Of a DNA stretch of 64,000 bases, positions 2,998 through 36,569 are shown piece by piece. The first letter of the stretch is position 1. Each line of letters starts with the position of its first letter. The DNA is taken from positions 1-64,000 of the forward strand of contig JAFLEF010000009.1 in assembly GCA_017309115.1 (NCBI GenBank), written 5' to 3'. Under the pieces are notes generated by a model. It worked only from the letters and a program-made list of their open reading frames with translations. It made no database searches and had not been told where the DNA came from. The stretch comes from Verrucomicrobiota bacterium (lineage in GTDB: Bacteria; Verrucomicrobiota; Verrucomicrobiia; Limisphaerales; UBA9464). A program made the translations under genes and the position numbers.

Positions 2998-5028
2998 TCA
3001 CGGCTGCCGCAGACGGTAGAAGCCGTTGGCGGTCGGGGTGAGACGGACGACCCATTGGTCGCCTTCCACCACCGGCGCAACGTTGACCGGTTGCCAGTTT
3101 GCTTCGCCCAGCGCCGGAAGGGATTCCAGCAAGGCGTCGGGAATGGCGGCGGGCCAGCGGAGTTCAAGCGTCGCATTGGCGCCCAGTCCAGCCGTCAGGG
3201 TGGGGGCGATGAGCGGCTTGCAGGCCGCGAGTTCGTTCACGCCCGCCTTGGGTCCGCAGGGACGGATCACCGCATAGCGCACGCGGCTGACAAAGATTTT
3301 GTCGCTGAGCACGAAGCGGGCAGCCGCTTGCGGACCCTGATTCACGCCCAGGAACTTCATGTCGGGAATCTCCCAGTAGGCTTCCTTCCAGGTGTCGGTG
3401 CCTTCGAGAGTGATGTAGGCGCTGTCCGGAACGAACTTCAGCGTCGTGATGCCGTTGGCTTCGGTCTGATACACCTCGGGCTTGAACCGTGCTCCGGCGA
3501 GGGCCGGGTCATCGTAGTACGTGACGCAGATGGCCAGGTTGGCGGCGGGCTGGCTGGACGGTCCGAAGACCTGATCCGTGATGGCGAAGTTGAGGTATTG
3601 ATGGGTGAAGCCAACGGGACCGTCATCACGAGCCGGCCGGATGGCGTTGCGCCGATCGGAGGCCGGACCGGCCTCCGCTTCAATCATCACCTGATCACCC
3701 CCGCTGGAACCGAGGTCGAGGCCCTGTTTGAGTCCTTGTTTGAGATCGAGTTCGGCGTAGTTGCCATAGGTGTCCGTGCAGATGCTCGGATCAGCGAAGC
3801 AATCGGCGAGCGGATCCTGTCCGGCGAGCGGATGGGTTCCGGTGCGCAGGACGGCGAGGTCGAAGCGGGAGACGAAGACTTGGCCGTTCTCGGAGACGAA
3901 CCTCGGTCCGGCCGTGAGCGCGCCCGCATTGACGCCCTTGAGACTCACCGCAGGAACGATCCAGGAGCGCTTGATCCACTCTCCGGTGCCGGTGAGGACC
4001 TGCCGTTGTTCGGCCGGGTAGAAGCCGATGCCGCCGAGGCTATCGGTGGCGTATGCTTCGGGTCCGAACCGCACGTCGAGTCCGGCGAAGGCCGGATCGT
4101 CGTAGAACTCCACACATACTTTGACCGCGCGCGGGTCGTTGCAGGGTTGGCCCAGATAATTGTCGAGAATGCCGAAGTTCAGCAGAGAGCCATTGGGGCG
4201 CACCGCCCGACGTTTGTCCGTAGCGGGTCCGACCTGATCTTCAAACGTGACCGTTTGATCGCCGTCATTGATCACCACCAGGTGGTTGGTGACGCCGGCC
4301 CGGAGATCGAGTCCGACCAGGTTGGTGTTGGGTTCGGGATCACAGGAGTCGGCCGGGGCGAAGAGATTGATGGCTTCGGGTTCGCCGAACGCTCCCTGGG
4401 GTCCGAAGGCGATGGCCCGGATGATCAGGTTGGGCACCTGTTCCAGACGAATCGTGCCGCCGTTGACGCCGCCGCTGGAGGTGTCGCCCTGCGCGCCCTC
4501 TGGCACCGAGCCGACGAAGCGGGTGCCATCGGCGCGCTGACCGTTGGGAATGCGGAACAGAATCCAGTTCCACTTCTTATTGCGGGCCTCGACCGCGACC
4601 GAGCCGCCCACCGGGGCGGTCAATTCCGGGAGGGTGCCGAGGAGGAAGTTAAAGTTACGCGGCGATCCATCGAGATTGAACAAGGCGTCATCCCCGTAGG
4701 CCTGGACGAGAATGTCGATGGTTTCATCGTCGGCCCATTCCCCGAACGAGGAATCGGCCACGTTGAAATAGTTGCCGAGCGCCTTGACACCGCTGAAGCC
4801 ACCAATGGTGATATCGCCGGTGATCTGATCACCACCGCTGAGGACCCTTAGATCCGGAGTCCACGTTTCCGAGGGTGCGGCGAGGGCGTCGCCGGTGACG
4901 TAATAGTGGACGACTTTGTCAGCCTGTCGCGTGGACGGCCAATCGGTGGGACTGGAAGGTCCGGTCTGAGCGAGAGCCCAGAGCGAACTGACGCCGCCCA
5001 GCAAGGCCGCGAAGAGAGTTCGATTCAT
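2998..5028 (-). CDS. Exported protein with two tandem related modules
   Basis: Function not recognised. The protein has 676 residues and begins with a Sec signal peptide (MNRTLFAALLGGVSSLWALAQ). Roughly residues 227-408 and 409-595 are two diverged copies of one module. Both contain a stretch like GPATDKRRAVRP / GPASDRRNAIRP, then VCVEFYDDPAFAG / ICVTYYDDPALAG, and both end in FVSRFDLAVLR / FVSRVRYAVIR. The last 65 residues match a tail module shared with other exported proteins here and end in FYRLRQP. It is probably periplasmic or surface-attached; the modules could be carbohydrate-binding jelly rolls, but that is a guess. I start at 5028, not the longer 5091, because the signal peptide begins there. 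It is transcribed divergently from the sigma factor gene. Confidence 0.8.
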   Translation of the reverse strand: MNRTLFAALLGGVSSLWALAQTGPSSPTDWPSTRQADKVVHYYVTGDALAAPSETWTPDLRVLSGGDQITGDITIGGFSGVKALGNYFNVADSSFGEWADDETIDILVQAYGDDALFNLDGSPRNFNFLLGTLPELTAPVGGSVAVEARNKKWNWILFRIPNGQRADGTRFVGSVPEGAQGDTSSGGVNGGTIRLEQVPNLIIRAIAFGPQGAFGEPEAINLFAPADSCDPEPNTNLVGLDLRAGVTNHLVVINDGDQTVTFEDQVGPATDKRRAVRPNGSLLNFGILDNYLGQPCNDPRAVKVCVEFYDDPAFAGLDVRFGPEAYATDSLGGIGFYPAEQRQVLTGTGEWIKRSWIVPAVSLKGVNAGALTAGPRFVSENGQVFVSRFDLAVLRTGTHPLAGQDPLADCFADPSICTDTYGNYAELDLKQGLKQGLDLGSSGGDQVMIEAEAGPASDRRNAIRPARDDGPVGFTHQYLNFAITDQVFGPSSQPAANLAICVTYYDDPALAGARFKPEVYQTEANGITTLKFVPDSAYITLEGTDTWKEAYWEIPDMKFLGVNQGPQAAARFVLSDKIFVSRVRYAVIRPCGPKAGVNELAACKPLIAPTLTAGLGANATLELRWPAAIPDALLESLPALGEANWQPVNVAPVVEGDQWVVRLTPTANGFYRLRQP

Positions 5029-5289
5029 GGTTGATATGGTTGCCGTTCCCAGCGACGACACGGCGCTCCGGGTCAGGGCGGAGGTCATCACGACGGAAAG
5101 GAGTACGCCTTCAGACCTCTTTGGACCCGAGTGGTTTCAATCTAAATGCGGGTCGGTCTTACTTTTCCGGTTCCGGGTCGCTGGCTTCCGTCCGTGCGGG
5201 ACGTCGGGTTCGGAGGACGGTCGCAGTATCGATTGGAGATTCCCCAAGTTTCCTGTCACCTCCGGTCGGCAATCCACCACGGGCAGGCA

Positions 5290-6885
5290 ATGAGGACGGT
5301 CCGAATCAAGGAACAAAGCTCCGACCAAGAGTTGCTCGAGCAGAGTCGGTCGGGAGATCGCGAAGCGTACGGTGAATTGGTCCGACGCCATCAGAATCTG
5401 GTGTGCGGACTGGCGTTTGCCCATTGCGGCGATCGGATGCGGAGTGAGGACTTGGCGCAGGAAACCTTCGTGGCTGGTTGGCGTCAGTTGCCCCAGCTCC
5501 GGGATCCCAGCCGCTTCAAGAGTTGGCTGTGCGGCATGGTTCGCTTGCGCGCTGCCGGTGCGCGGCGGGAAGCCCGACGAGATCCGACCGCCGGAGCGGA
5601 ATCCTGGGAGGATTGCGCGGAAGCATCCGGGACTGCCTCGACTCCGGCGGCTGAAGTGGTGGCGGCGGAAGAGGGTCGGATGGTGTGGAAGGCCCTGGCC
5701 GAATTGCCCGAGACGTATCGCGAACCGCTGGTTTTGTTTTATCGGGACGGACAATCCGTGGCTCGGGTGGCGCAACACCTCGAGCTTTCGGAGGACGCCA
5801 TCAAGCAACGTCTTGCCCGAGGACGGGAGCTCTTGCGGGGAAGGCTGTCCACCTTGGCCGAAGAGATCCTGGGACGTTCCGGACCCAATCCTGCCTTCAG
5901 TGGCCTGGTGCTGGCGGCGTTACCATTGTCGCTGCCTTCGACCGGTGCAGCGGCGTTGGCGACGGGAAGTGCGGACCAATCCTGGGCGGCGGTGGGCGGA
6001 GGAGCGTGGTTGACCGTTCTTGGGCCGGTATTGGGCTTGCTTGGAGCCTGGGTGGGCATTCGGGCGTCCTTGCAGAATGCCGGATCTGAAGCGGAGCGAC
6101 GTTTGGTGAAACAGTTGTTGGTGACCTGCGCGGTTTTGCTGATCGCCTCAGGCAGCGGGTTGGTGGGGCTCTTCTGGCTGGGGCGAATCCACTGGGGTTG
6201 GAGCCTGGGTCAGTGGGCGGTGGCGGTGGGGGGCTGGTCGCTCTTGGCGATGACTGTATTTCTCGCGGTGGGCATTCGCTGGGAACGTCGCCGTCGGCAC
6301 TTGGTTGCCGTCGAAGAGCGTTCAGGAATGCGGTCAACCGCCCGTCCGGCGGTCCTTTGGCGATATCAATCGAGGCGCCGGTGGTTGGGCTGGCCGCTGG
6401 TGGATGTGCACGTGGGCGGTTCGCGTCGCGGGGTCGCCCGCGGATGGCTGGCCATCGGAGATCTGGCCCTGGGAGGGGTGGCGTTCGGAGGCGTGGCCGT
6501 CGGGGGAATCGCCGTGGGAGGAGTGGCGCTGGGTGGTATTGCTGTGGGCGGGGCCGCGGCGGGTCTTCTGGCCGTGGGTGGAATGGCGTTGGGTTGGGGT
6601 GCGGTGGGTGGACTGGCAGTCGGAGGACTGGCCTTCGGTGGCGCGGCCCTCGCCGTGAAGGCCGCCAGCGGCGGAATGGCCCTGGCCCAGGAAGTGGCCG
6701 TGGGCGGCTGGGCTCAGGCCGCGCATGCCAATGATGCTTGGGCCCGGGAGTGGGTCGCCCAGTCCGGGTTCTTTCGAACCGCCAAAGTGGTCGTCCGCTG
6801 GCTTCCCTTGCTCTCGGTGTTGCCGATGTTGCTGCCGCTTTGGATGACGCGAATGGCGCGCCGATCCAAGGAGCGTTCGGCTTGA
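5290..6885 (+). CDS. ECF sigma factor fused to a membrane domain with pentad repeats
   Basis: Residues about 12-90 form sigma-70 region 2 (DQELLEQSRSGDREAYGELV, then EDLAQETFVAGW). Residues about 130-180 form region 4 with its helix-turn-helix (LPETYREPLVLFYRDG, then VAQHLELSEDAIKQRLARG). So the N terminus should direct RNA polymerase to specific promoters. The remaining 350 residues are unusual for a sigma factor. They hold several hydrophobic segments (around LTVLGPVLGLLGAWVGI, LLIASGSGLVGLFWL and WSLLAMTVFLAVGI), then twelve pentads of the type xAxGG at residues 392-451, then a last hydrophobic helix before a basic tail. This suggests a sigma factor tethered to the membrane, perhaps autoregulated without a separate anti-sigma factor. 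No anti-sigma gene is adjacent. I start at 5290; upstream in-frame sequence to 5146 looks non-coding. Confidence 0.82.
   Translation: MRTVRIKEQSSDQELLEQSRSGDREAYGELVRRHQNLVCGLAFAHCGDRMRSEDLAQETFVAGWRQLPQLRDPSRFKSWLCGMVRLRAAGARREARRDPTAGAESWEDCAEASGTASTPAAEVVAAEEGRMVWKALAELPETYREPLVLFYRDGQSVARVAQHLELSEDAIKQRLARGRELLRGRLSTLAEEILGRSGPNPAFSGLVLAALPLSLPSTGAAALATGSADQSWAAVGGGAWLTVLGPVLGLLGAWVGIRASLQNAGSEAERRLVKQLLVTCAVLLIASGSGLVGLFWLGRIHWGWSLGQWAVAVGGWSLLAMTVFLAVGIRWERRRRHLVAVEERSGMRSTARPAVLWRYQSRRRWLGWPLVDVHVGGSRRGVARGWLAIGDLALGGVAFGGVAVGGIAVGGVALGGIAVGGAAAGLLAVGGMALGWGAVGGLAVGGLAFGGAALAVKAASGGMALAQEVAVGGWAQAAHANDAWAREWVAQSGFFRTAKVVVRWLPLLSVLPMLLPLWMTRMARRSKERSA
6463..6642 (+). repeat. Twelve in-frame 15-base repeats encoding xAxGG pentads
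   Basis: Each unit encodes five residues, such as LALGG, VAFGG, VAVGG and IAVGG, with only small departures (AAAGL, MALGW). The codons vary at third positions, so the pattern is kept at protein level and is not simply recent DNA slippage. A thirteenth degenerate unit follows. Confidence 0.85.
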
Positions 6886-7222
6886 TTGGACGACGAGATT
6901 CTCCTGAGTCACGAATGGCACAAAACCACGGAAGGGGAAACGAGATGAAATCGGGAGCGCTGGCGTCTCGCCGGCCAGTATGAGGACGCGTGAGGCGAAC
7001 CGGTTGAGAGCTGAGAGCTGAACGGTCGGAACGGGGAAGCGGCAAGTGTGGTAGGGCGACACTCTGGAGCCGTTAGTGAGTGTACTGGTGACGCCTCTAT
7101 TCGCCGGGACGCGTACGGCTCCGCGGAGCGTCGCCCCACCGGCTCGGCTCCCGCACTCTCCAAAGTTTCTCCGTGGCCGTTCCAGGATTGGCTGGAGTCC
7201 GGCCGAGGCGTAGCCTGTTGTC
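6886..7222. repeat. Intergenic repeat cluster (R3, heptamers, R1)
   Basis: No gene seen. 6953-6975 is the R3 element GGGAGCGCTGGCGTCTCGCC..., which occurs in the opposite orientation at 10157-10180 and 15660-15683. 7003-7023 has the heptamers GTTGAGA, GCTGAGA and GCTGAAC. 7050-7140 is an R1 copy beginning GGTAGGGCGAC and ending GAGCGTCGCCCCACC. The promoter of the next gene must lie in the last 80 bases. Confidence 0.75.
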
Positions 7223-22832: not shown

Positions 22833-24242
22833 TCAGGCCATGATGTCGCGGACCACCCGGCCATGAACATCGGTCAGCCGGAAATCGCGTCCGGCATGGC
22901 GATAGGTCAGGGCCTCATGATCGACGCCCAACAGGGCCAGCAAGGTCGCGTGCAGATCGTGGACATGCATTTTCTCGTCCACGCAGTAGAACCCGTAGTC
23001 GTCGGTCACCCCGTAACTGAACCCGGCGCGCACCCCGCCACCCGCCAGCCACATAGTGAACGCGTGCGGATGATGGTCCCGACCGTCCTTGCCTTGGAGC
23101 GTGGGAGTTCGACCGAATTCGCCGCCCCACATCACCAGGGTGTCCTCGAGCAGCCCTCGTGATTTCAGGTCGCGGAGCAGTCCCGCAATCGGCCGATCTA
23201 CCTCGGAGGCCAGGCGTCCGTGATCCTTGGTGAGATCGTCGTGCTGATCCCAATAGCCATGGGTCACCTGAACGAAGCGCACCCCGCGTTCGCTAAACCG
23301 CCGGGCCAGCAGACACTGCCGCGCGAACGAAGCAGTCCGAGGATCGTCCAGTCCGTAGAGTCGCCGCGTGGCCGCCGACTCGCCGTCGAGACTCATGATC
23401 TCGGGCGCTTCGGTTTGCATGCGGAAGGCCAGTTCGAAGGATTCGATGCGTGCCTCCAAGGCGGGATCGCTGCCGGTCGCAGCGAGATGATCCCGATTGA
23501 GTTCGCCGAGGAGATCGAGTTGGGCGCGTTGCAGGACCGTGTTTTCGTTGGGATCGTGCAGGTAATTGATCGTCGCCTTCTCCACCGGCATGCCCCCGCC
23601 GATAGGTGTTCCCTGATGCACGGCGGGCAGGAAGGCACTCGACCAATTGCCCACGCCGCCGTGGCCCAGAGTGGGATTGATCGTGAGGAAGCTCGGCAGA
23701 TTCTGATTCTCGGTGCCCAGACCGTAGGAGATCCAGGAGCCCATGCTGGGCCGGACGAAGGTGTCGGAACCCGTGTGCAGCTTCAGCAGCGCTCCGCCGT
23801 GCGCCTCGTTGGTCCCGTGAATGGACTTCAGGAAGCACAGGTCATCGGCGCAGGCGCCGACGTTGGGAAACAGGTCGCTGACCATGGCGCCGGATTCCCC
23901 GTAGGGCCGGAATTCCCAGGGCGATTTGCGCAGATTGGAGGTCTGGGCGAACTGGATGCGAGGCTTGGCGAAGGGCAGCGGTTGGCCGGTATCGCGAATC
24001 AGCAGCGGCTTGTAGTCGAAGGTGTCCACATGCGACGGGCCGCCGTGCATGAAGAGGAAAATGATGCGCTTGGCCCGGGGCCGGAACAGCGGCGCGTGTG
24101 GGGCGAGCGGGTTCAATCCGGAGTTCGCGGAAGCGGAGCCCAACGAAGCCCAAAGACCCGCCAGGGCGATCTGCCCAAAGCCGGCGCCACACTGCCGCAG
24201 CATCTGGCGTCGGCTGACAGGAGGTGGCAGAGCGTGCGGCAT
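22833..24242 (-). CDS. DUF1501 protein with twin-arginine signal
   Basis: A DUF1501 protein of about 469 residues, with a sulfatase/alkaline-phosphatase-like fold. The N terminus SRRQMLRQCGAGFGQIALAG is a Tat signal, implying export in folded form. Family motifs: RAKRIIFLFMHGGPSHVDTFDYKP (metal-binding region), FLKSIHGTNEAHGGA and LVMWGGEFGRTP. An upstream GTG at 24272 would add ten residues; I prefer the ATG, which places the RR motif closer to the N terminus. DUF1501 genes usually sit next to a DUF1549/DUF1553 cytochrome gene; this one has none, unlike the pair at 32171-36569. Its role is unknown. Confidence 0.9.
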   Translation of the reverse strand: MPHALPPPVSRRQMLRQCGAGFGQIALAGLWASLGSASANSGLNPLAPHAPLFRPRAKRIIFLFMHGGPSHVDTFDYKPLLIRDTGQPLPFAKPRIQFAQTSNLRKSPWEFRPYGESGAMVSDLFPNVGACADDLCFLKSIHGTNEAHGGALLKLHTGSDTFVRPSMGSWISYGLGTENQNLPSFLTINPTLGHGGVGNWSSAFLPAVHQGTPIGGGMPVEKATINYLHDPNENTVLQRAQLDLLGELNRDHLAATGSDPALEARIESFELAFRMQTEAPEIMSLDGESAATRRLYGLDDPRTASFARQCLLARRFSERGVRFVQVTHGYWDQHDDLTKDHGRLASEVDRPIAGLLRDLKSRGLLEDTLVMWGGEFGRTPTLQGKDGRDHHPHAFTMWLAGGGVRAGFSYGVTDDYGFYCVDEKMHVHDLHATLLALLGVDHEALTYRHAGRDFRLTDVHGRVVRDIMA

Positions 24243-24307
24243 ACGACTGGTCGTCTCTGACGAATCCAACACCCGTTCGATTCAGGCGGGAAGGGGAATG
24301 GGGGGAA

Positions 24308-25501: not shown

Positions 25502-25756
25502 TTGTTCGCCGAAGCGCAGCCGATTCAGAACCAGTTCGCCGGCTTGCGAGACCCCAAGGCTGAATACGAAGAGGCGGATGCATACGTCATCGCGTTGGCG
25601 AAATTGCGTGGCGGGATTGTGGTGACTCAGGAAACGCCCGCGGCCGAGAAGCGGAATCCGAAGCGCACGCATTTCATTCCGGATGTTTGCCGGGAGTTGG
25701 GTATTGCGTGCATCAGCCTAATCGGCTTGATGCGCCGCGAGGGTTGGAAGTTTTGA
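25502..25756 (+). pseudogene. 3' fragment of a DUF4411 PIN-like toxin gene
   Basis: Only the C-terminal half of the family is present. EADAYVIALAK, GGIVVTQETPA, the pattern PKRTHFIPDVCRELGI and a tail INLxxLMRREGWKF-like stretch (ISLIGLMRREGWKF here) fit DUF4411, PIN-fold proteins usually encoded beside an XRE/ImmA-IrrE type partner. The upstream in-frame sequence meets a stop codon at 25481-25483, and no start or N-terminal PIN motif (catalytic aspartate near residue 5) is found. So the gene has lost its 5' half and is probably inactive. Its former partner is not recognisable upstream. This points to a decayed toxin-antitoxin or defence locus. Confidence 0.68.
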
Positions 25757-25935
25757 TTCTTGGTGGCTAAAGGTTAAAGAGCAAAGAGCGCCCCAATCGC
25801 CCTCGTCCAGAGTCCAAAAGCATTGGCACCACTGTAACATCCTACGGGGTGACGACATGTCCTACGGCCATTCCCAATTGGCGATTGGCGTCCATTCGTG
25901 TCCATTCGCGGTGGGCCTGAATGGTTCCGTCTGAG

Positions 25936-26008
25936 CCCTCCGCCCTTACCCCTTGCCGGCCTTCGCCATTCCCCTCTTCGCGTTCGAGACTTGCCGCCTA
26001 CCGCCAGA
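25936..26008. repeat. 73-base direct repeat, right copy
   Basis: It begins CCCTCCGCCC, continues TTGCCGGCC, CTCTTCGCGTT, CGAGACTT, and ends CCGCCAGA. It lies 673 bases from the left copy at 25263-25335 in the same orientation. Confidence 0.7.
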
Positions 26009-26050
26009 TTCCAGAAACTGCCGCCAATCAGACGGTTCAAACCGGAACAG

Positions 26051-26115
26051 ATGCGCGACCTAACTCCAGAACAACAGGCTCGGCAGCAGATCGACGCCCA
26101 ACTCCAGGCCTGCGG
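26051..26115 (+). pseudogene. Possible N-terminal scrap of a type I restriction R subunit
   Basis: An ATG opens MRDLTPEQQARQQIDAQLQ followed by ACG. This resembles the very start of many HsdR proteins (pattern TPEQxARxxIDxxLxxAGW). The similarity stops after about 22 residues and nothing of the nuclease or helicase follows. The fragment is short, so the assignment is tentative. Confidence 0.4.
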
Positions 26116-26213
26116 GACGGGCGTTATCTCCATTTGCTCGCTGAATCGAGCGACGACCCGCCAGTTCAGCCTCCAACAGATCAACACGTGAGAAATAACG
26201 AAAACTGCAACCG

Positions 26214-26250
26214 AGTGTCACCCAGCATTTGACCAACCCGACGTGACACT
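26214..26250. promoter_or_regulatory. Perfect inverted repeat upstream of the DUF5131 operon
   Basis: AGTGTCAC (26214-26221) and GTGACACT (26243-26250) are perfect 8-base arms separated by 21 bases, centred about 43 bases before the ATG of the first gene. The centre-to-centre distance of 29 bases is a little under three helical turns. This fits an operator for a dimeric or DNA-looping regulator; no regulator gene is adjacent. Confidence 0.5.
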
Positions 26251-26274
26251 TTCAGGGCCAACAAACGCCTCATC

Positions 26275-27057
26275 ATGAGCGACAATTCTAAGATCGAATG
26301 GACGGATGCCACGTGGAATCCAGTACGCGGCTGTACGAAGGTCAGCCCTGGCTGTTCGCATTGCTATGCCGAGACGTTCGCAGAGCGGTTTCGAGGCGTT
26401 CCCGATCACCCCTTCGAGTTCGGTTTCGATCTGCGGCTTGTGCCGGAGAAGCTGGGCGACCCGCTTCGCTGGTCCAAGCCCAAGAAGATTTTCGTCAACT
26501 CGATGAGCGACCTTTTCCACGAGGGCGTTTCCGACGAATACATCGAAAAAATCTGCCGGGTGATGTTGGCGGCGAACTGGCACACCTACCAAATTCTCAC
26601 CAAGCGGGCCGACCGGATGGCGGCACTGCTGCAAGGCAAGTTGCGTAAAGCGGCAAATGCGGCGCACATCTGGTGGGGCGTGAGCGTGGAGAATCGCAAA
26701 CACGGGTTGCCGCGCATTGAGAAACTGCGGAGCGCCAAGCCAACGGTGGCTTTTCTCTCGGTTGAACCACTGCTGGAAGATCTGGGTACTTTTAACCTTC
26801 ACGGAATTCAATGGGTGATTGTGGGTGGAGAGAGCGGCCCTGGTGCGCGGCCAATGGAAGCCGAGTGGGTGCGGAACATTCGCGATCAATGCCAGAAGGC
26901 TGGCTCAGCGTTCTTTTTCAAACAATGGGGTGGCGTTCGCAAGAGCGAGACGGGACGGAGGCTCGACGGAAGGACATACGATGAATTTCCGGAGCCTTCC
27001 ATCTCTCCGAATCCGTCATCTGCAGACTTGCTGGCGCTTAGGGAGGAGTTTGCCTAA
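26275..27057 (+). CDS. DUF5131 / phage Gp37-Gp68 family three-cysteine protein
   Basis: A 260-residue protein. The N terminus SKIEWTDATWNPVRGCTKVS, then PGCSHCYAE, contains Cys20, Cys27 and Cys30. This three-cysteine cluster defines the family and resembles a radical-SAM-type iron-sulfur site. Other family motifs are KPKKIFVNSMSDLFHE, WHTYQILTKRADRM, IWWGVSVEN, FLSVEPLLEDL, WVIVGGESGPGARPM and FFFKQWGG. Homologues occur in phages and in bacterial defence-rich regions; the reaction is unknown, though chemistry on nucleic acid is plausible. It is the first gene of a tight operon: three bases separate its stop from the TcmP start. TcmP-type proteins are named as partners of three-Cys-motif proteins. 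Confidence 0.9.
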   Translation: MSDNSKIEWTDATWNPVRGCTKVSPGCSHCYAETFAERFRGVPDHPFEFGFDLRLVPEKLGDPLRWSKPKKIFVNSMSDLFHEGVSDEYIEKICRVMLAANWHTYQILTKRADRMAALLQGKLRKAANAAHIWWGVSVENRKHGLPRIEKLRSAKPTVAFLSVEPLLEDLGTFNLHGIQWVIVGGESGPGARPMEAEWVRNIRDQCQKAGSAFFFKQWGGVRKSETGRRLDGRTYDEFPEPSISPNPSSADLLALREEFA

Positions 27058-27060
27058 CAA

Positions 27061-28143
27061 ATGCATGCGAACGATTTTCACGAAAAGCCGTTCGACGAAG
27101 GAACGCTAACCAAGCTCAGGATTTTTGAGCTCTACGCACGCGAATGGCTTCCAGTCTTTCTCTCCGCAGAGAGGCCTCGGCTGCCTAAAATTCATCTATT
27201 CGACTTTTTCGCCGGACCAGGTACGGACTCGTCAGGTCAGCTAGGTAGCCCACTTCGATTGCTGCGACAGTTAAAGCACTATCAAGAACGCGGAGGATTG
27301 AAGAGGGCCTGCGTTGAAGTTCACCTGTTTGACGAATCGAAAGAAAAGACAAGCCAGCTGAAGGAGAACATCGCTACCCATGGCCTGCAGTTGCCAGACT
27401 TAACGTTCGACGTAAGGCCGCTCGCCTTCAGCCAAGCATTCCGGAACTGCGAGAGAATTTTGGAGGACCCGGAGGCAGCCAAGCTGGTGTTCATAGATCA
27501 GTTTGGTGTGGACCATGTGACCCCGGCGGTGTTTCGCACCCTCGTTAGCTCTCCAATCTGCGATTTCCTGTTCTTCCTTTCATCCTCAACGCTCTATCGA
27601 TTTCATGATATCCCAGCAATTAAACAGAAAATTGCGCGCCCAGATGATTACTTCCACGTACACCGCGCGGCGCTTGATTACTATCGAAGTCTCCTGCCTT
27701 CCGGGATGAGGTACTTCCTCGCTCCGTTTTCCATCAAGAAAGGCGCAAACATTTATGGCCTCATTTTCGGATCCGCTCATCCGCTTGGGATCGACAAATT
27801 CCTTCAGGTGGCTTGGCAAAGCGACGAAATCAGCGGGGAAGCTGATTTCGATATAAATCGTGAAAACATCCGCCCCGGCGAGATGCTGCTGGCTTTTGAG
27901 GAAATGCGACCGAGCAAGATTTCCGCGTTTGACCGCGAACTTGAACATTTGTTACGCGCTGGTCTTCTGGTCGATGAATTTGACGTGATGCAGGTCTGCT
28001 TTGAACACGGTGTGAAACGGCAACATGCGGAACCTGTCATGGCAAAGCTGAAACGAGAAGGCGTTATTGACTTGGATTTCAGAGTCCCTGACGTCCGGAG
28101 ATCTTTGCCAAGGCCTATTCGCCACCATCGCCGAGGACCTTAA
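27061..28143 (+). CDS. Three-Cys-motif partner protein TcmP-like
   Basis: A 360-residue protein. The N-terminal half has Rossmann methyltransferase-like landmarks: HLFDFFAGPG (residues 45-54, similar to the SAM-binding loop), VEVHLFDESKEK (about 86-96, acidic end of strand 2) and KLVFIDQFGVDHVTP (about 141-155, where a catalytic motif would sit). The C-terminal third looks like a winged-helix or other helical domain. TcmP-like proteins are regularly found next to DUF5131 proteins; their activity is not established. Methyl transfer or SAM binding is my inference. Bases and codons are visibly more AT-rich than in neighbours, a sign of horizontal transfer. The Mrr gene follows after 12 bases. 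Confidence 0.85.
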   Translation: MHANDFHEKPFDEGTLTKLRIFELYAREWLPVFLSAERPRLPKIHLFDFFAGPGTDSSGQLGSPLRLLRQLKHYQERGGLKRACVEVHLFDESKEKTSQLKENIATHGLQLPDLTFDVRPLAFSQAFRNCERILEDPEAAKLVFIDQFGVDHVTPAVFRTLVSSPICDFLFFLSSSTLYRFHDIPAIKQKIARPDDYFHVHRAALDYYRSLLPSGMRYFLAPFSIKKGANIYGLIFGSAHPLGIDKFLQVAWQSDEISGEADFDINRENIRPGEMLLAFEEMRPSKISAFDRELEHLLRAGLLVDEFDVMQVCFEHGVKRQHAEPVMAKLKREGVIDLDFRVPDVRRSLPRPIRHHRRGP

Positions 28144-28155
28144 GCGATAACTGCC

Positions 28156-29064
28156 ATGCCTGTTCCGGAATTTGAAGAGATCAAAGCGCCCCTCCTCCAA
28201 TACTTCGCCGACGGCCAACCGCACCGGATGGCCGACACGTTTGAGGCGCTGGGAGATCATTTTGGCCTGAGCCCCGAGGAGCGTTCGGAACTGCTGCCGA
28301 GTGGAACCCAGGCGCGATGGCACAATCGAGCCAGCTGGGCCTGCTACGATCTTTACCGGGCCGGTCTTCTGGATCGGCCGCGTCGAGGGACCTATCAGAT
28401 CACTCCACTCGGTCGGGAGATTGCGGCGCAAAAACCGTCGATGATTGATCGAGATTACTTGATGAAGTTTGAGAGCTTTCGAAAGTGGCTCGAGAAACGG
28501 GTGGACCCGGTGGTTGCTCCCGTTGTTCCCCCGGATCCCACACAGAATCCTCCCATTGAAATCATCGAGCGAGCCCACCGGCATCTGACCGAACGCCTCC
28601 GCTCCGAGATCCTTCAATTGGTCTCGAAGATGAATCCCATTCGTTTCGAGCGGCTCGTCTTGGATCTCCTCCTGGCAATGGGCTACGGCGGATCGCGCGA
28701 GGAGGCGGCGCAGATGACCAAGACCTCCAACGACGAAGGCATCGACGGCGTGATCAACGAGGACCGCCTGGGCTTGGACGTCATCTATATCCAGGCGAAA
28801 CGGTGGCAGAACACCGTCGGCAGGAAGGAGATTCAAAGCTTCGTCGGGGCCTTGGCCGGACAACAGGCGACCAAGGGCATTTTCATCACCACGAGCGACT
28901 TCGCCAATACGGCCACAGAGTATGTCCGCAAACTGCAATCCAAGGTCATCCTTATCAACGGCGATCGGCTGGCTTACCTCATGATCCGCCACGACATCGG
29001 AGTGTCGAAGGAGCACTCATTCGAGATCAAACGCATCGATAGTGACTACTTTGAGGAGGAGTAG
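28156..29064 (+). CDS. Mrr-type restriction endonuclease
   Basis: A 302-residue protein with two domains. Residues 1-95 are an Mrr N-terminal winged helix (PEFEEIKAPLLQYFADGQPH, WACYDLYRAGLLDRPRRGTY, then ITPLGRE). Residues about 150-285 are the PD-(D/E)xK nuclease: FERLVLDLLLAMGYGG, NDEGIDGVI (acidic residues at 193-197) and DVIYIQAKRW, with the QAK (213-215) typical of Mrr. GIFITTSDFANTATEYV is the usual follow-on helix. Mrr enzymes cut methylated or otherwise modified DNA in the cytoplasm. Here it is the third gene of the DUF5131-TcmP operon, which suggests that the cassette modifies and cuts, or senses and cuts, DNA. No key residue is missing. Confidence 0.92.
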   Translation: MPVPEFEEIKAPLLQYFADGQPHRMADTFEALGDHFGLSPEERSELLPSGTQARWHNRASWACYDLYRAGLLDRPRRGTYQITPLGREIAAQKPSMIDRDYLMKFESFRKWLEKRVDPVVAPVVPPDPTQNPPIEIIERAHRHLTERLRSEILQLVSKMNPIRFERLVLDLLLAMGYGGSREEAAQMTKTSNDEGIDGVINEDRLGLDVIYIQAKRWQNTVGRKEIQSFVGALAGQQATKGIFITTSDFANTATEYVRKLQSKVILINGDRLAYLMIRHDIGVSKEHSFEIKRIDSDYFEEE

Positions 29065-29452
29065 TTCTCGAAAGTCTCGCCGGGAGATGTGCGTGGGCTG
29101 TGTGGCGAGCCGGACCAGGAGCTGCATGCTGCATCTCCGGGAGTATTTCGTTGTCTCTTGCAGAGGCGCTGAGACGCGGAGTAGAGAGATACTTGGGGAA
29201 AGTTGAGCGTTGAGAGAAAGGCCTGCAACAGGTCAGGCCGCTAGACATTCTTTATTCCTGATTGCCCCATTCGTGCTTCTTTTGTGCCGATTCGTGGTTT
29301 AATTCGGTGTTTGCGGGTGGTTCGGGAGGCTTCGCTGGGGCGGAGGCGTTGGGGGGAATTGGCGCGGCGCGACTCCACCCGGGAACGGCTCCGCGGAGCG
29401 TCGCCCCACCATAGGGAAAGTTGTTAGTTGAGAGTTGAGAGGTTGGGGAGGG
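29065..29452. repeat. Intergenic region with heptamers and an R1 half element
   Basis: No gene. 29202-29215 has GTTGAGC and GTTGAGA. 29385-29410 is the right half of R1 (ACGGCTCCGCGGAGCGTCGCC). 29420-29440 has GTTGTTA and two GTTGAGA units, followed by GGGGAGGG touching the ATG at 29453. A long-loop inverted repeat, CCGGGAGATG and CATCTCCGGG, lies near 29080-29145 just after the Mrr gene and could help end transcription. Confidence 0.65.
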
Positions 29453-31876
29453 ATGGCGTCCTATGGCGGGACGATGTCCAAAGGCTCGGCCAGTAGCTCC
29501 GTTTTCCGGTCGTCGCGGCGGCGATGGGTAGGGAGTCTGCTGTGGTTTTTGGGGACGTTGCTGGTGCTGGTATTGCTGGTTGCGGCGGGGGTGGGAATTT
29601 GGGTGTTTCGGTATCGGCAGATTGTCTCGGCGGCGCCGGGGGGATTGAAGCCGAAGGTTGAGCCCGGGGAATTGGGGCGCTGGGTGAATCCGTTTATCGG
29701 GACGGGCGGGTATCCGTGGGTGTGCGGGCATAACTTTCCGGGCGCGATGGTGCCGTTTGGGATGGTGCGGCTAGGGCCGGAGACGGTTTCGCTGGGGTTC
29801 GCGAAACGGGGCCTTAACACATCCGGATACTTCTACGGCGATGAACGAATCCTGGGCTTCAGTCACACCCGCCTCAATGGCACTGGCGCCACGGACGGCG
29901 GACATGTGCTGGTGACGCCCGGGAATCGCTCGCTGGAGCCGCAGGAGTTTCGCCGGGGGCATTCCCTTCGGTTTTCCCATCACGAGGAGGTCGCCTCGCC
30001 GGGATACTATGCGGTGCGGCTACCGGAAATCGGGGCGCTGACGGAACTCACGGCCACAACCCGGGTCGGAATGCATCGGTACACGTTCGATCCGGGGGTG
30101 ACGCCGCATCTAGTCTTTGACGTCATGAATGCGCTGGGCGGACGTCGCTCGGACGAAGGCCGGGTGCAGGTGCGTTCCGATCTCCGGGAACTCTCCGGGT
30201 CCGTGCGCACCTTCGGGACCTTCGCGAGCCGATACGGGGGCATCCGAGTGTTTTTTGTGGCGCGACTGAGTACGCCGGCGGCCTCCGTCGTCCTCTGGCG
30301 TGATGGGAAACGACAGCCGGGCGAATCCGTTTCCGAAGGCTTGGAGGTCGCCGCGGAACTGGCGTTTCCCAAGGCCACCAAGCCCCACGAAATCACGCTG
30401 CAGGTGGGCTTGTCCTACGTGAGTCTGGAGAATGCTCGGGCCAATCTGGAGGCCGAAGGCGAAGGGCGCACGTTCGAGCAGATCGCGGCGTCGGCGCGTC
30501 AGGAATGGGAGGAGCGGTTGGCCACCATTCGGGTGGATGGCGGGACGGACACGCAGCGGCGCATTTTCTACACGGCCCTGTTTCGGGTGTTCCAGATGCC
30601 CACGGTGGTACAGGACGCCAATGGTGACTACCTCGGATTTGACCGTCAGGTTCATCAGGCGGTGGGCTTCCGGTACTTCACCGACCTCTCGCTGTGGGAC
30701 ACGTTTCGAACGGTGCATCCGCTCTTCACGCTGATCGCCCCGCAGGATCAGCGGGACATGGTGGTGTCGCTGATCCGGATGTTGGAGCAGGGCGGTTGGC
30801 TGCCGCGCTGGCCGTCGGGAAATGGCTACTCCAATTCGATGTTGGGCACGCCGGCGGACATCGTCGTGGCCGAGACCTATCTGAAAGGGATTCGGGACTT
30901 CGACATTCAGAAGGCCTACGAGGCCATGCGGCGCACGGCGCTGGAACCGACTCCAACGGGGTCGGCATTCTCGGGTCGGGAAGGCGTGGAGGACATTTTG
31001 AAGTTTGGTTACGCGCCGTCGGATCGCATGGATGAGTCGGTGGCGCGCACCTTGGAATTCGGCTGGTCGGATCACGCGCTCTCACTGCTCGCCGAGGCGT
31101 TGGGCCGAACCAACGATGCGGCGCTCTTCCGGAGTCATTCGCAGTTTTACCGGAATCTGTGGAACACCAACACGCAGTACTTCCAGCCGCGGACGTCGGC
31201 GGGAACGTTCGTGGAGCCGTTCGATCCGCTGCTACTCACGTACCTCGACTGGGACGGGCGTCAGACCAAGGACTACGTGGAAGGCAGCCCGCTGCAATGG
31301 CGTTGGGCGGTGCCGTATGACGCGCCGGGACTCATCTCGCTGTTTCGCAGTCGGGAAGAATTCGTGACGGAACTGGATCAGTTCTTCGCGTTGTCGCATC
31401 CAGGGCGCGGACGTTGGACGCCTGGGCCGTACTACTGGCATGGGAATCAGCCCGACTTGGCGTCGGCCTATCTGTTCAATGACGCGGGCCGGCCGGATCT
31501 GACCCAGAAATGGGTCCGCTGGATTCTCGAGCACAAGTACGGCGACGGCTACGAGGGGTTGGACGGTAATGACGACGGCGGGACGCTCTCGGCGTGGTAC
31601 GTGTGGAGTGCGCTGGGGCTGTATCCGGTGGCCGGCACGGATCGGTATCAGTTGGGCGTTCCGCTGTTTCCCCGCGCGGAGATCGCTTTGGGCGAGGGCA
31701 AGCTGGTCGTTCTGATCGAGCCGGAGGGCCCCACCCATTCCTCCGTGCGCCGGGTGTGGTGGAATGATGAGCCGCTGGACCGTACCTGGATTCGCCACGA
31801 GGAACTGGCTCGCGGCGGCACGCTCCGCTTCGAAGTGGGGCCGCCGTTGGCAGATGAAGTGGGGGCGGAGAGGTAA
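29453..31876 (+). CDS. GH92 family glycosidase (alpha-mannosidase-like), membrane-anchored
   Basis: A protein of about 807 residues. An N-terminal membrane helix follows a basic stretch (RRRWVGSLLWFLGTLLVLVL), so it is probably anchored with the enzyme outside the cytoplasm. GH92 landmarks: WVNPFIGTGG, GHNFPGAMVPFGMVRLGP, FSHTRLNGTGATDGG, YFTDLSLWDTFRTVHPLF, the active-site stretch GLDGNDDGGTLSAWYVWSALGLYPVAG, and GWLPRWPSGNGYSNSMLGTP. The family removes alpha-mannose units from glycans or glycoproteins by a calcium-dependent inverting mechanism. The start is uncertain: ATG at 29453 has a purine-rich GGGGAGGG directly in front, and ATG at 29474 would also leave the anchor intact. The TAA stop lies inside the first unit of a heptamer array. 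Confidence 0.93.
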   Translation: MASYGGTMSKGSASSSVFRSSRRRWVGSLLWFLGTLLVLVLLVAAGVGIWVFRYRQIVSAAPGGLKPKVEPGELGRWVNPFIGTGGYPWVCGHNFPGAMVPFGMVRLGPETVSLGFAKRGLNTSGYFYGDERILGFSHTRLNGTGATDGGHVLVTPGNRSLEPQEFRRGHSLRFSHHEEVASPGYYAVRLPEIGALTELTATTRVGMHRYTFDPGVTPHLVFDVMNALGGRRSDEGRVQVRSDLRELSGSVRTFGTFASRYGGIRVFFVARLSTPAASVVLWRDGKRQPGESVSEGLEVAAELAFPKATKPHEITLQVGLSYVSLENARANLEAEGEGRTFEQIAASARQEWEERLATIRVDGGTDTQRRIFYTALFRVFQMPTVVQDANGDYLGFDRQVHQAVGFRYFTDLSLWDTFRTVHPLFTLIAPQDQRDMVVSLIRMLEQGGWLPRWPSGNGYSNSMLGTPADIVVAETYLKGIRDFDIQKAYEAMRRTALEPTPTGSAFSGREGVEDILKFGYAPSDRMDESVARTLEFGWSDHALSLLAEALGRTNDAALFRSHSQFYRNLWNTNTQYFQPRTSAGTFVEPFDPLLLTYLDWDGRQTKDYVEGSPLQWRWAVPYDAPGLISLFRSREEFVTELDQFFALSHPGRGRWTPGPYYWHGNQPDLASAYLFNDAGRPDLTQKWVRWILEHKYGDGYEGLDGNDDGGTLSAWYVWSALGLYPVAGTDRYQLGVPLFPRAEIALGEGKLVVLIEPEGPTHSSVRRVWWNDEPLDRTWIRHEELARGGTLRFEVGPPLADEVGAER

Positions 31877-32170: not shown

Positions 32171-33655
32171 TCAGGCGATGACCCCGCGGATCACTTCGCT
32201 GCCGGGTTTGGTCACGTTGGTCAGTCGCATGTTCACGCCGGAAACCGGATAGGTGAACTTCAGATGATCGAAGCCCATCAGGGCGAGCACGGTGGCGTGG
32301 AAGTCGTGAACCGACACGCGGTCCACGACGGATTGATACCCGAACTCATCGGTTTCGCCGTAGCTGAAGCCCCGACGAACACCGCCACCCGCCATCCAAA
32401 TGGTGAACGCCCCGGGATTGTGATCCCGACCGACGAATTCCATTTCCATGCCGCTGCGATTTTCGCGCATGGGGGTTCGTCCGAATTCGCCGCCCCAGAC
32501 GATGAGCGTTTCGTCGAGCAAACCGCGTTGTCGCAGATCGAGAATGAGCGCGGCTAGGGCGCGGTCAACGCTTTGGCACTTGCCCTTGAAGCCGTGGTTG
32601 AGGGCTTCCGATTCGCCAGCGCCGTGGGAATCCCAACCCCAATCAAACAACTGGATGTAGCGCACCCCGCGTTCGGCCAGTCGGCGCGCCAGCAGACAGT
32701 TGTTGGCGAAGGATTCCTTGCCGGGTTCGGTGCCGTACAACTGATGAATCGCGGCGGGTTCCCGGGTGATGTCGAAGGCGTCGCTGGCATCCACCTGCAT
32801 TCGGAACGCCAGTTCGTACTGAGCGAGCCGGGTCAGCGTCTCGGGATCACCGACGTCGCGGGCGGTTTGCTCATTGATCTCCTGAATGGCATCCAGAGTC
32901 CGGCGGCGCAGACCGCGGGTGACGCCGGCGGGATTGGACAGGAACAAAACCGGATCGCCTTGGGAGCGGCACTGCACCCCTTGGTACACCGAGGGAAGAA
33001 AGCCGGAACCCCAGACCGACTTGCCGGCATCGGGATTCTTGCCGCCACTGGTGAGCACGATGAAGCCGGGGAGATTCTGATTGTCCGATCCGAGACCGTA
33101 CGTGGCCCAGGCTCCGGCACTGGCGGCACCGGGATTCTGCGAACCGGTATGCATCAGCAACTGGGCGGGGCCATGGTTGAACTGATCGGTGTACATCGAC
33201 TTGATGAAGCACACCTCGTCCACCACGGAGGCGAAGTGTGGCATTCGATCAGAGACCCATTGCCCGCTCTGGCCGTGCTGCTGGAAGGCGAATTGGGGAC
33301 CGAGCATTTTCGGCACGCCCTGAATGAAGGCGAACTGCTTGCCGGCGATGAGCGAGGCCGGGCATTCCTGACCGTCGAGGCGTTTCAGCTCGGGCTTGTA
33401 GTCGAAGAGTTCGAGCTGACTCGGCGAACCGGCCATGTGCAGGTAGATGATCCGTTTGGCCCGGCCGGGCAAGGGCGGCGCGGCGGGAGCGAGCGGGCGG
33501 GTCACGTCCTTGGCGGGACCGGTGGCGCCCCAGGCCCGGCCGGCCGTCGAGGCCAGCCACAAGGCGCCCAGACCACTGGCGCAATCGCGCAGAAAATGCC
33601 TTCGGGTGCGCTGCAGCAGTTGTTCGTGACGGAGGTAGGAGTCGAGCGGATTCAT
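32171..33655 (-). CDS. DUF1501 protein paired with DUF1549/DUF1553 gene
   Basis: A 494-residue DUF1501 protein. A Tat-like signal (RRHFLRDCASGLGALWLAS) starts about residue 18. Family motifs: RAKRIIYLHMAGSPSQLELFDYKP, FIKSMYTDQFNHGPAQLLMHTG, SWxTYGLGSDNQNLP-like (AWATYGLGSDNQNLPGF), LIVWGGEFGRTP, GRDHNPGAFTIWMAGGG and RGFSYGETDEFG. Unlike the orphan copy at 22833-24242, it lies directly after its usual partner (33675-36569, 19 bases upstream), in the order expected for an operon. The pair is common in Planctomycetes and Verrucomicrobia; a role in handling complex, perhaps sulfated, polysaccharides has been suggested on genomic grounds only. Confidence 0.93.
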   Translation of the reverse strand: MNPLDSYLRHEQLLQRTRRHFLRDCASGLGALWLASTAGRAWGATGPAKDVTRPLAPAAPPLPGRAKRIIYLHMAGSPSQLELFDYKPELKRLDGQECPASLIAGKQFAFIQGVPKMLGPQFAFQQHGQSGQWVSDRMPHFASVVDEVCFIKSMYTDQFNHGPAQLLMHTGSQNPGAASAGAWATYGLGSDNQNLPGFIVLTSGGKNPDAGKSVWGSGFLPSVYQGVQCRSQGDPVLFLSNPAGVTRGLRRRTLDAIQEINEQTARDVGDPETLTRLAQYELAFRMQVDASDAFDITREPAAIHQLYGTEPGKESFANNCLLARRLAERGVRYIQLFDWGWDSHGAGESEALNHGFKGKCQSVDRALAALILDLRQRGLLDETLIVWGGEFGRTPMRENRSGMEMEFVGRDHNPGAFTIWMAGGGVRRGFSYGETDEFGYQSVVDRVSVHDFHATVLALMGFDHLKFTYPVSGVNMRLTNVTKPGSEVIRGVIA

Positions 33656-33674
33656 GGCGACGTCGGAAAGCGGT

Positions 33675-36569
<2,895 letters not shown>

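Follow-up and report, generated by a model that had tools for sequence, protein, structure and literature searches.

A DUF5131-TcmP gene pair in the remains of a type I restriction locus of a Verrucomicrobiota bacterium

The stretch of DNA analysed here (the window) consists of 64,000 nucleotides, positions 1 to 64,000 of contig JAFLEF010000009.1 from a Verrucomicrobiota bacterium (assembly GCA_017309115.1), whose genome is available as 7.5 Mb in 111 contigs. It carries three adjacent genes encoding a DUF5131 protein, a TcmP protein and an Mrr-type nuclease, which a preliminary description of the sequence had joined into one undescribed defence operon. We found that Mrr is no regular part of the DUF5131-TcmP unit, and the adjacency of TcmP and Mrr is well supported as the scar of a deletion, as judged from the end of an hsdM gene left between them. 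The pair itself is one more copy of a candidate already catalogued, found here after decay of its host restriction locus. We consider it probable that the pair was embedded in a type I restriction locus and outlived it, and that it forms a module of a radical S-adenosylmethionine (SAM) enzyme and a methyltransferase that modifies nucleic acid.

The pair, its Mrr neighbour and the junction between them

The recurrence of the pair was assessed in 105 loci from three sources, nearly all of them picked by TcmP, for which 1159 homologues were found, among them proteins 84% and 78% identical to it. The first source gave 20 stretches, which are the solo DUF5131 gene of the window's own genome and 19 of the 23 other genomes positive for PDC-M30A, the TcmP model of PADLOC (four were left out); PDC-M30A was present in 24 of 387 Verrucomicrobiota genomes, the window's own included. 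The second gave the best 80 of 120 loci on genome contigs plus two on viral contigs, and the third gave three annotated plasmid loci. TcmP and DUF5131 genes lay within 250 bases of each other in 92 of the 105 loci, with a median gap of 2 bases, so that the pair is indeed a recurrent unit, as first described. The order was DUF5131-TcmP in 38 pairs and the reverse in 53, and one pair was convergent. Five of the 92 duplicate the pair sequence of another locus, three of these being the same contigs sampled twice. Flanks ranged from 0 to 8.8 kb and amounted to 1.07 Mb, with at least 5 kb on both sides in 51 pair loci and at least 1 kb downstream in 83. With six more pair loci, taken from five plasmids and one phage, the other pairs number 98 (93 distinct). 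Of the 13 loci that lack a pair, several are on short contigs or end near TcmP, yet two of them (L037 and L043) are 18 kb long and still have no DUF5131. In two other loci (L041 and L042, from genomes G024 and G063) the pair region is identical across the 1500 bases compared, which could reflect recent transfer or close kinship.

Mrr does not share this recurrence. A profile built from 120 Mrr proteins recovered the window's Mrr as a positive control (E = 2e-157) and gave no match at E 1e-3 in the 105 loci with their 92 pairs, and the catalytic part alone, allowed an E of up to 1, gave a single chance-level match there (E = 0.084). Mrr was likewise absent beside the six further pair loci, which makes 0 of 98 other pairs. 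The reverse test agrees: around the best 30 Mrr loci minus the window, neither TcmP nor DUF5131 was found within up to 1.5 kb on each side (0/29; seven of the 29 loci had shorter flanks, clipped at contig ends). Mrr is abundant elsewhere, with at least 7999 homologues of the locus protein and a match to it in 78 of 286 genomes of the window's class. Zero in 93 distinct pairs leaves room for Mrr pairing up to about 3%, and the chance expectation is itself small. Other nucleases were sought among up to three open reading frames (ORFs) of 120 to 1300 residues on each side (113 of 113 in a first set, 132 of 179 in a second); the Pfam and PADLOC scans matched 100 to 295 families each, and no single nuclease family recurs among the top 25 of each scan. 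An enrichment of nucleases beside such pairs, which had been proposed as a check, is missing for Mrr in this sample, which shows that Mrr is no regular partner but not that every degree of enrichment is absent; restriction genes do occur near pairs without any one recurring nuclease.

The junction between tcmP and Mrr offers a reason for the tight spacing. Here a C-terminal remnant of hsdM, a feature absent from the preliminary description, overlaps the end of tcmP in another frame (Table 1). A profile of the HsdM C-terminus, for which 114 of 120 proteins similar to HsdM of a related locus (L063) were used, ranked this end at the top of 1911 scored stop codons in all six frames of the window (16.7 versus 9.3 for the runner-up), and EAALEQFATIAEDLKR is the literal C-terminal end of at least 6 of the 120 natural HsdM proteins. 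The Mrr start (28156) lies five bases beyond the hsdM stop, and beyond R351 or so TcmP is translated from the hsdM tail, in a frame other than that of hsdM. The gap of 12 bases, once taken as a sign of co-operation, is no evidence of it because the junction contains this tail. We dropped Mrr as a third gene on the two sets of counts and on the hsdM tail.

Some relatives have the order hsdR - hsdS - ... - DUF5131 - tcmP - (...) - hsdM. The simplest explanation, well supported by the sequence, is that a deletion here joined the 3′ end of tcmP to that of hsdM, which left ten hsdM codons and the stop and brought Mrr, a separate gene after hsdM, within 12 bases of tcmP. A partnership between Mrr and the pair may have arisen after the deletion.

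Table 1. Genes and gene remnants of the locus, in window coordinates
Feature	Positions	Strand	Description
DUF4411 C-terminal remnant	25502-25756	+	PF14367 positions 97-159 of 159, E = 2.9e-16
hsdM (type I methylase) N-terminal remnant	25797-25868	+	24 codons, E = 1.3e-6
hsdR (type I restriction subunit) N-terminal remnant	26051-26182	+	44 codons, 40.9% identity to L063 HsdR residues 1-44
DUF5131 protein	26275-27057	+	260 residues, radical-SAM-like, PADLOC PDC-M30B
TcmP	27061-28143	+	360 residues, class I SAM methyltransferase-like, PADLOC PDC-M30A
hsdM C-terminal remnant	28118-28150	+	FATIAEDLKR + stop, overlaps tcmP end in another frame
Mrr-type (type IV) restriction endonuclease	28156-29064	+	302 residues, Mrr_N + Mrr_cat

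Type I remnants and the settings of the pair

Three more fragments lie upstream of the pair, and the accessory setting with remnants of a toxin and perhaps a type I gene, as first described, proved to be real and more extensive. The fragments match the gene set of L063, which holds hsdR, hsdS, DUF5131, tcmP, Xre/M78, DUF4411 and hsdM as full-length ORFs. The DUF4411 remnant, of a family of PIN-like toxins, has lost its N-terminal half and is 65.9% identical over 82 residues to residues 76-157 of the L063 protein (E = 4.6e-33). The N-terminal hsdM fragment is 66.7% identical to residues 2-25 of L063 HsdM, and 51 of its 72 bases are identical to the hsdM start of L065, where the next best place reaches 33 of 72. 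The hsdR fragment was matched at E = 2.4e-6 with the first 200 residues of L063 HsdR as query and at 2.6e-5 with the whole protein, and is 70% identical over its first 20 residues. No trace of hsdS or Xre/M78 was found in the window, though both are present in L063.

Of 21 close relatives, defined as loci whose TcmP shares at least 50% identity in its best segment (L052-L069, L072, L076, L084), 8 show an entire or fragmentary type I gene within the stretch covered (L052, L053, L056, L063, L064, L065, L072, L084). In three of them hsdM starts directly after tcmP: the two overlap by 4 bases in L065, whereas a 4-base gap separates them in L053, where hsdM is shortened to 153 codons, and in L084, where both genes are broken. 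In L052 and L063 hsdM lies further downstream. An HsdM match was obtained in 8 of the 92 pair loci. As background, HsdM_N gave 271 matches in 188 genomes of the window's class, or about 0.35 per Mb if a genome is assumed to hold about 4 Mb, so that about 0.4 would be expected in the 1.07 Mb of flanks; HsdM is thus some twenty-fold above background near pairs, a figure to be read as an order of size only since models and taxa differ. L065 is otherwise a type I operon, in which PRTase-CE and reverse-transcriptase-domain proteins are encoded between hsdS and DUF5131 (4319-6953).

Beyond type I genes, the matches near pairs include type IIG and MADS methylase models, Fic, SLATT_5, OLD/AAA proteins and resolvases. 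A type ISP enzyme gene overlaps tcmP in Leptospira p74, and an integrase adjoins the pair in two Pseudomonas aeruginosa plasmids. The pair genes are convergent, still as neighbours, in Streptomyces and Nocardia plasmids and in Gordonia phage Fairfaxidum. The phage (L179 2992-4933) encodes DUF5131 (gp42) and a divergent TcmP (gp43, annotated as a methyltransferase; TcmP match E = 4e-17) between its integrase and its immunity repressor, an interval where prophages often place defence genes. A phage search with the window's TcmP gave no match at 1e-5, and viral contigs searched with a single TcmP sequence gave no relative; DUF5131 matched in 161 phage records.

Several side observations concern these settings. 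In a Phaeobacter piscinae plasmid (L176 5986-9485) a dGTP triphosphohydrolase gene, of an enzyme class with known anti-phage members, follows the pair after 38 bases. In three Pedobacter loci (L107, L110, L114) a convergent gene for a weakly TcmP-like protein (E from 3e-7 to 3e-10) overlaps the end of DUF5131. In Mycobacterium phage prophi62-2 (L177 5001-7132) a DUF5131 gene with no TcmP beside it overlaps a PAPS-reductase-like gene by one base, and an HNH endonuclease is the next gene after DUF5131 in phages TChen (L178) and Typha (L184). These neighbours are possibly a clue to the chemistry of solo DUF5131.

The island in the window is flanked by genes for proteins (22833-24272 and 32171-36569) that we take to be DUF1501-like and planctomycete-type cytochrome-like, and a GH92 glycosidase gene lies after Mrr. 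Among 51 genomes of the same family, 8 have this gene, including the window's own; around it the seven others showed only paralogue-level matches to window genes (27-39% identity; L169, L170), and no empty site could be demonstrated among the 51. A consensus promoter scan of 25700-29500 gave no promoter on the + strand, the count being within chance expectation, so that it speaks neither for nor against a promoter of Mrr's own.

The pair is also less novel than supposed. In the PADLOC models, which we matched without the system rule, TcmP is PDC-M30A (E = 2.4e-101) and DUF5131 is PDC-M30B (E = 1.3e-101), with a nearly equal match of the latter to PDC-M41B (2.8e-101). The window pair shares with PDC-M30 the two adjacent genes and the restriction-locus setting, and we noted no difference except that Mrr follows here after the hsdM deletion. 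The PDC class was reportedly defined in a preprint. According to a passage of one paper, PDCs arise from 'guilt-by-embedding' and most lack an experimental test (PMC12988326), an origin that a pair within a restriction locus fits. Passages of two papers on P. aeruginosa report PDC-M30, one in 32 strains of which 68.8% were resistant, a correlation (PMC10855318), and the other as two copies in PA14 (PMC11878078); with these and the PADLOC entry the pair can no longer be called undescribed. A table in a Sinorhizobium paper places TcmP (SMa2243) under Hna (SMa2245) (PMC12445080). Our literature search, which covered neither preprints nor most subscription journals, found no paper under the name DUF5131 and no experimental work on the pair.

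Predicted enzymes

The three genes stand as first described, all full length and on one strand, spaced by 3 and 12 bases, and the residues singled out at that time are present: Cys20, Cys27 and Cys30 of DUF5131, D48 of TcmP (in DFFAGPG) and K215 of Mrr (in QAK). The Mrr protein carries both domains of type IV endonucleases (Mrr_N, E = 1e-28; Mrr_cat, E = 4.6e-38) and the catalytic D...QxK residues as DEGIDG...QAK, with no difference noted from that class, and matches the PADLOC model mREase_IV along its entire length (E = 2.2e-86).

DUF5131 belongs to Pfam PF07505 (E = 3.4e-97), and it is most likely a radical-SAM enzyme with a [4Fe-4S] cluster on Cys20, Cys27 and Cys30 and a fold like that of spore photoproduct lyase and viperin, as predicted from its structural model. 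The three cysteines are invariant in 57 of 57 sequences, clustered as such a ligand set would be, and the model (mean predicted local distance difference test, pLDDT, 93.1) has the partial TIM barrel of radical-SAM proteins. In VIA-align the first 30 rows are radical-SAM enzymes, judged by their titles and in part by family membership that we presume, with a resemblance to spore photoproduct lyase and viperin. The radical-SAM character suggested earlier is thus borne out by the predicted fold together with the cysteines. Identity to spore photoproduct lyase and viperin is only 10-13% despite the similar fold, and the spacing of DUF5131 is C-x6-C-x2-C, unlike the C-x3-C-x2-C motif of these two, which it lacks. 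The radical-SAM model TIGR04471 matched weakly, with E = 1e-20 but far under its cut-off, and a sequence search of the PDB gave no relative, its one row being at chance level (E = 0.55).

TcmP matches TIGR04474 (E = 1.5e-36) with 126.7 bits, above the curated cut-off of 53 bits. Its D48, F50, G52, G54, D146 and G149 are found in 69 of 69 sequences, as is an acidic residue (D/E) at 91, which provides motif I, the acid after strand 2 and the Asp at strand 4 of class I SAM methyltransferases in a predicted fold of that class. The fold resembles the methyltransferases RlmJ (first in VIA-align) and Trm1, which act on A2030 of 23S rRNA at N6 and on G26 of tRNA, respectively; TcmP carries an additional C-terminal part that is helical and possibly a winged helix. 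A sequence search of the PDB gave no relative. On its modelled fold and intact SAM site, which bear out the earlier methyltransferase assignment, TcmP is most likely a SAM-dependent methyltransferase with an RlmJ/Trm1-like fold.

Together, DUF5131 and TcmP would act on a base of DNA or RNA, either modifying or processing it. The likeliest role, given the modelled folds, is that of a two-enzyme, nucleic-acid-modifying and phage-related accessory module; the pair is present in restriction loci, in plasmids and in at least one phage that looks temperate.

Weighing the readings and their meaning

A number of observations speak against an embedded two-enzyme module that outlived a type I locus. No relative inspected shares the arrangement DUF4411, hsdM-N, hsdR-N, pair, hsdM-C seen here, so that a single rearrangement is not enough. 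Nor did any relative examined show an intact hsdM followed by Mrr (none of the screened loci has Mrr after hsdM, and four of them have sequence beyond hsdM), and the state before the deletion is therefore inferred. Only 13 of the 105 loci have a homologue of HsdM, HsdR, HsdS, Xre-M78 or DUF4411, and the Bacteroidota loci gave no type I match, the queries being narrow in both cases. DUF5131 occurs without TcmP in 8 of 9 phage regions inspected and in a second, solo copy in the window's genome (G000:C24, about 201684-202388; L051 8508-9506), and can hence act alone. (This copy is about 70% identical to that of the pair, and a gene near it is ParA-like by sequence.) As to the models, the Foldseek match of DUF5131 is weak, with a best E of 7.8e-4 and only one below 1e-3, and RlmJ is not among the 50 Foldseek rows listed for TcmP. 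TcmP also has DQxG (Q147 in 68 of 69 sequences, P in one) instead of the DPPY seen in RlmJ, N6-adenine methyltransferases having the motif [DNS]PP[YFW]. A role in defence, finally, is a candidate role based on the PADLOC listing and the setting.

It is conceivable, and short of an even chance in our estimate, that the pair is an antiviral system with a new mechanism. A methyltransferase and a radical-SAM enzyme folded like spore photoproduct lyase and viperin would then jointly add an unusual modification to DNA or RNA, or process one, and the pair would have spread inside type I loci, plasmids and temperate phages. The resemblance to spore photoproduct lyase allows another thought, that the pair is a DNA-damage repair module in which DUF5131 reverses lesions, with no direct part in phage defence. 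A fold match shows no function, however, and the patchy spread of the pair (the 24 of 387 genomes above) and its restriction and mobile settings are more in keeping with conflict genes than with housekeeping repair, which leaves repair unlikely, if worth keeping in mind.

Somewhat less likely still is an accessory of type I restriction-modification, for example one that adds or reads a second modification for HsdMSR. The type I pieces in 8 of 21 close relatives, the 4-base overlap or gaps to hsdM in three of them and the type ISP gene of Leptospira p74 would suit such a role. Against it stand the few loci with any such homologue, the integrase next to the pair in two P. aeruginosa plasmids and in a phage, and the full length of both pair genes in the window despite the loss of the hsd genes. 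We also doubt that the pair is mobile or selfish cargo, or a decaying leftover without function here. It is surrounded by gene remnants and the 3′ end of tcmP is foreign, but both ORFs are full length with conserved residues while their neighbours are fragmentary, which suggests selection on the pair. The original proposal that all three genes make up a self/non-self system, with the pair altering nucleic acid or sensing altered nucleic acid and Mrr as the cutting enzyme, has in its favour the shared strand, the short gaps, the full-length genes and the modification-dependent type of the nuclease, but is very improbable in view of Mrr at none of 98 other pairs, the pair at none of 29 other Mrr genes, the hsdM tail, and a G+C content at third codon positions that places Mrr (0.72) closer to five flanking genes (0.77-0.80) than TcmP (0.56; DUF5131, 0.67).

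The locus thus illustrates that tight, operon-like spacing can stem from decay instead of co-operation, and looking in the spacer for the end of a lost gene is a test to tell the two apart. With the embedded pair read as a radical-SAM enzyme and a methyltransferase that would act on nucleic acid, an unnamed PADLOC candidate gains a concrete hypothesis.

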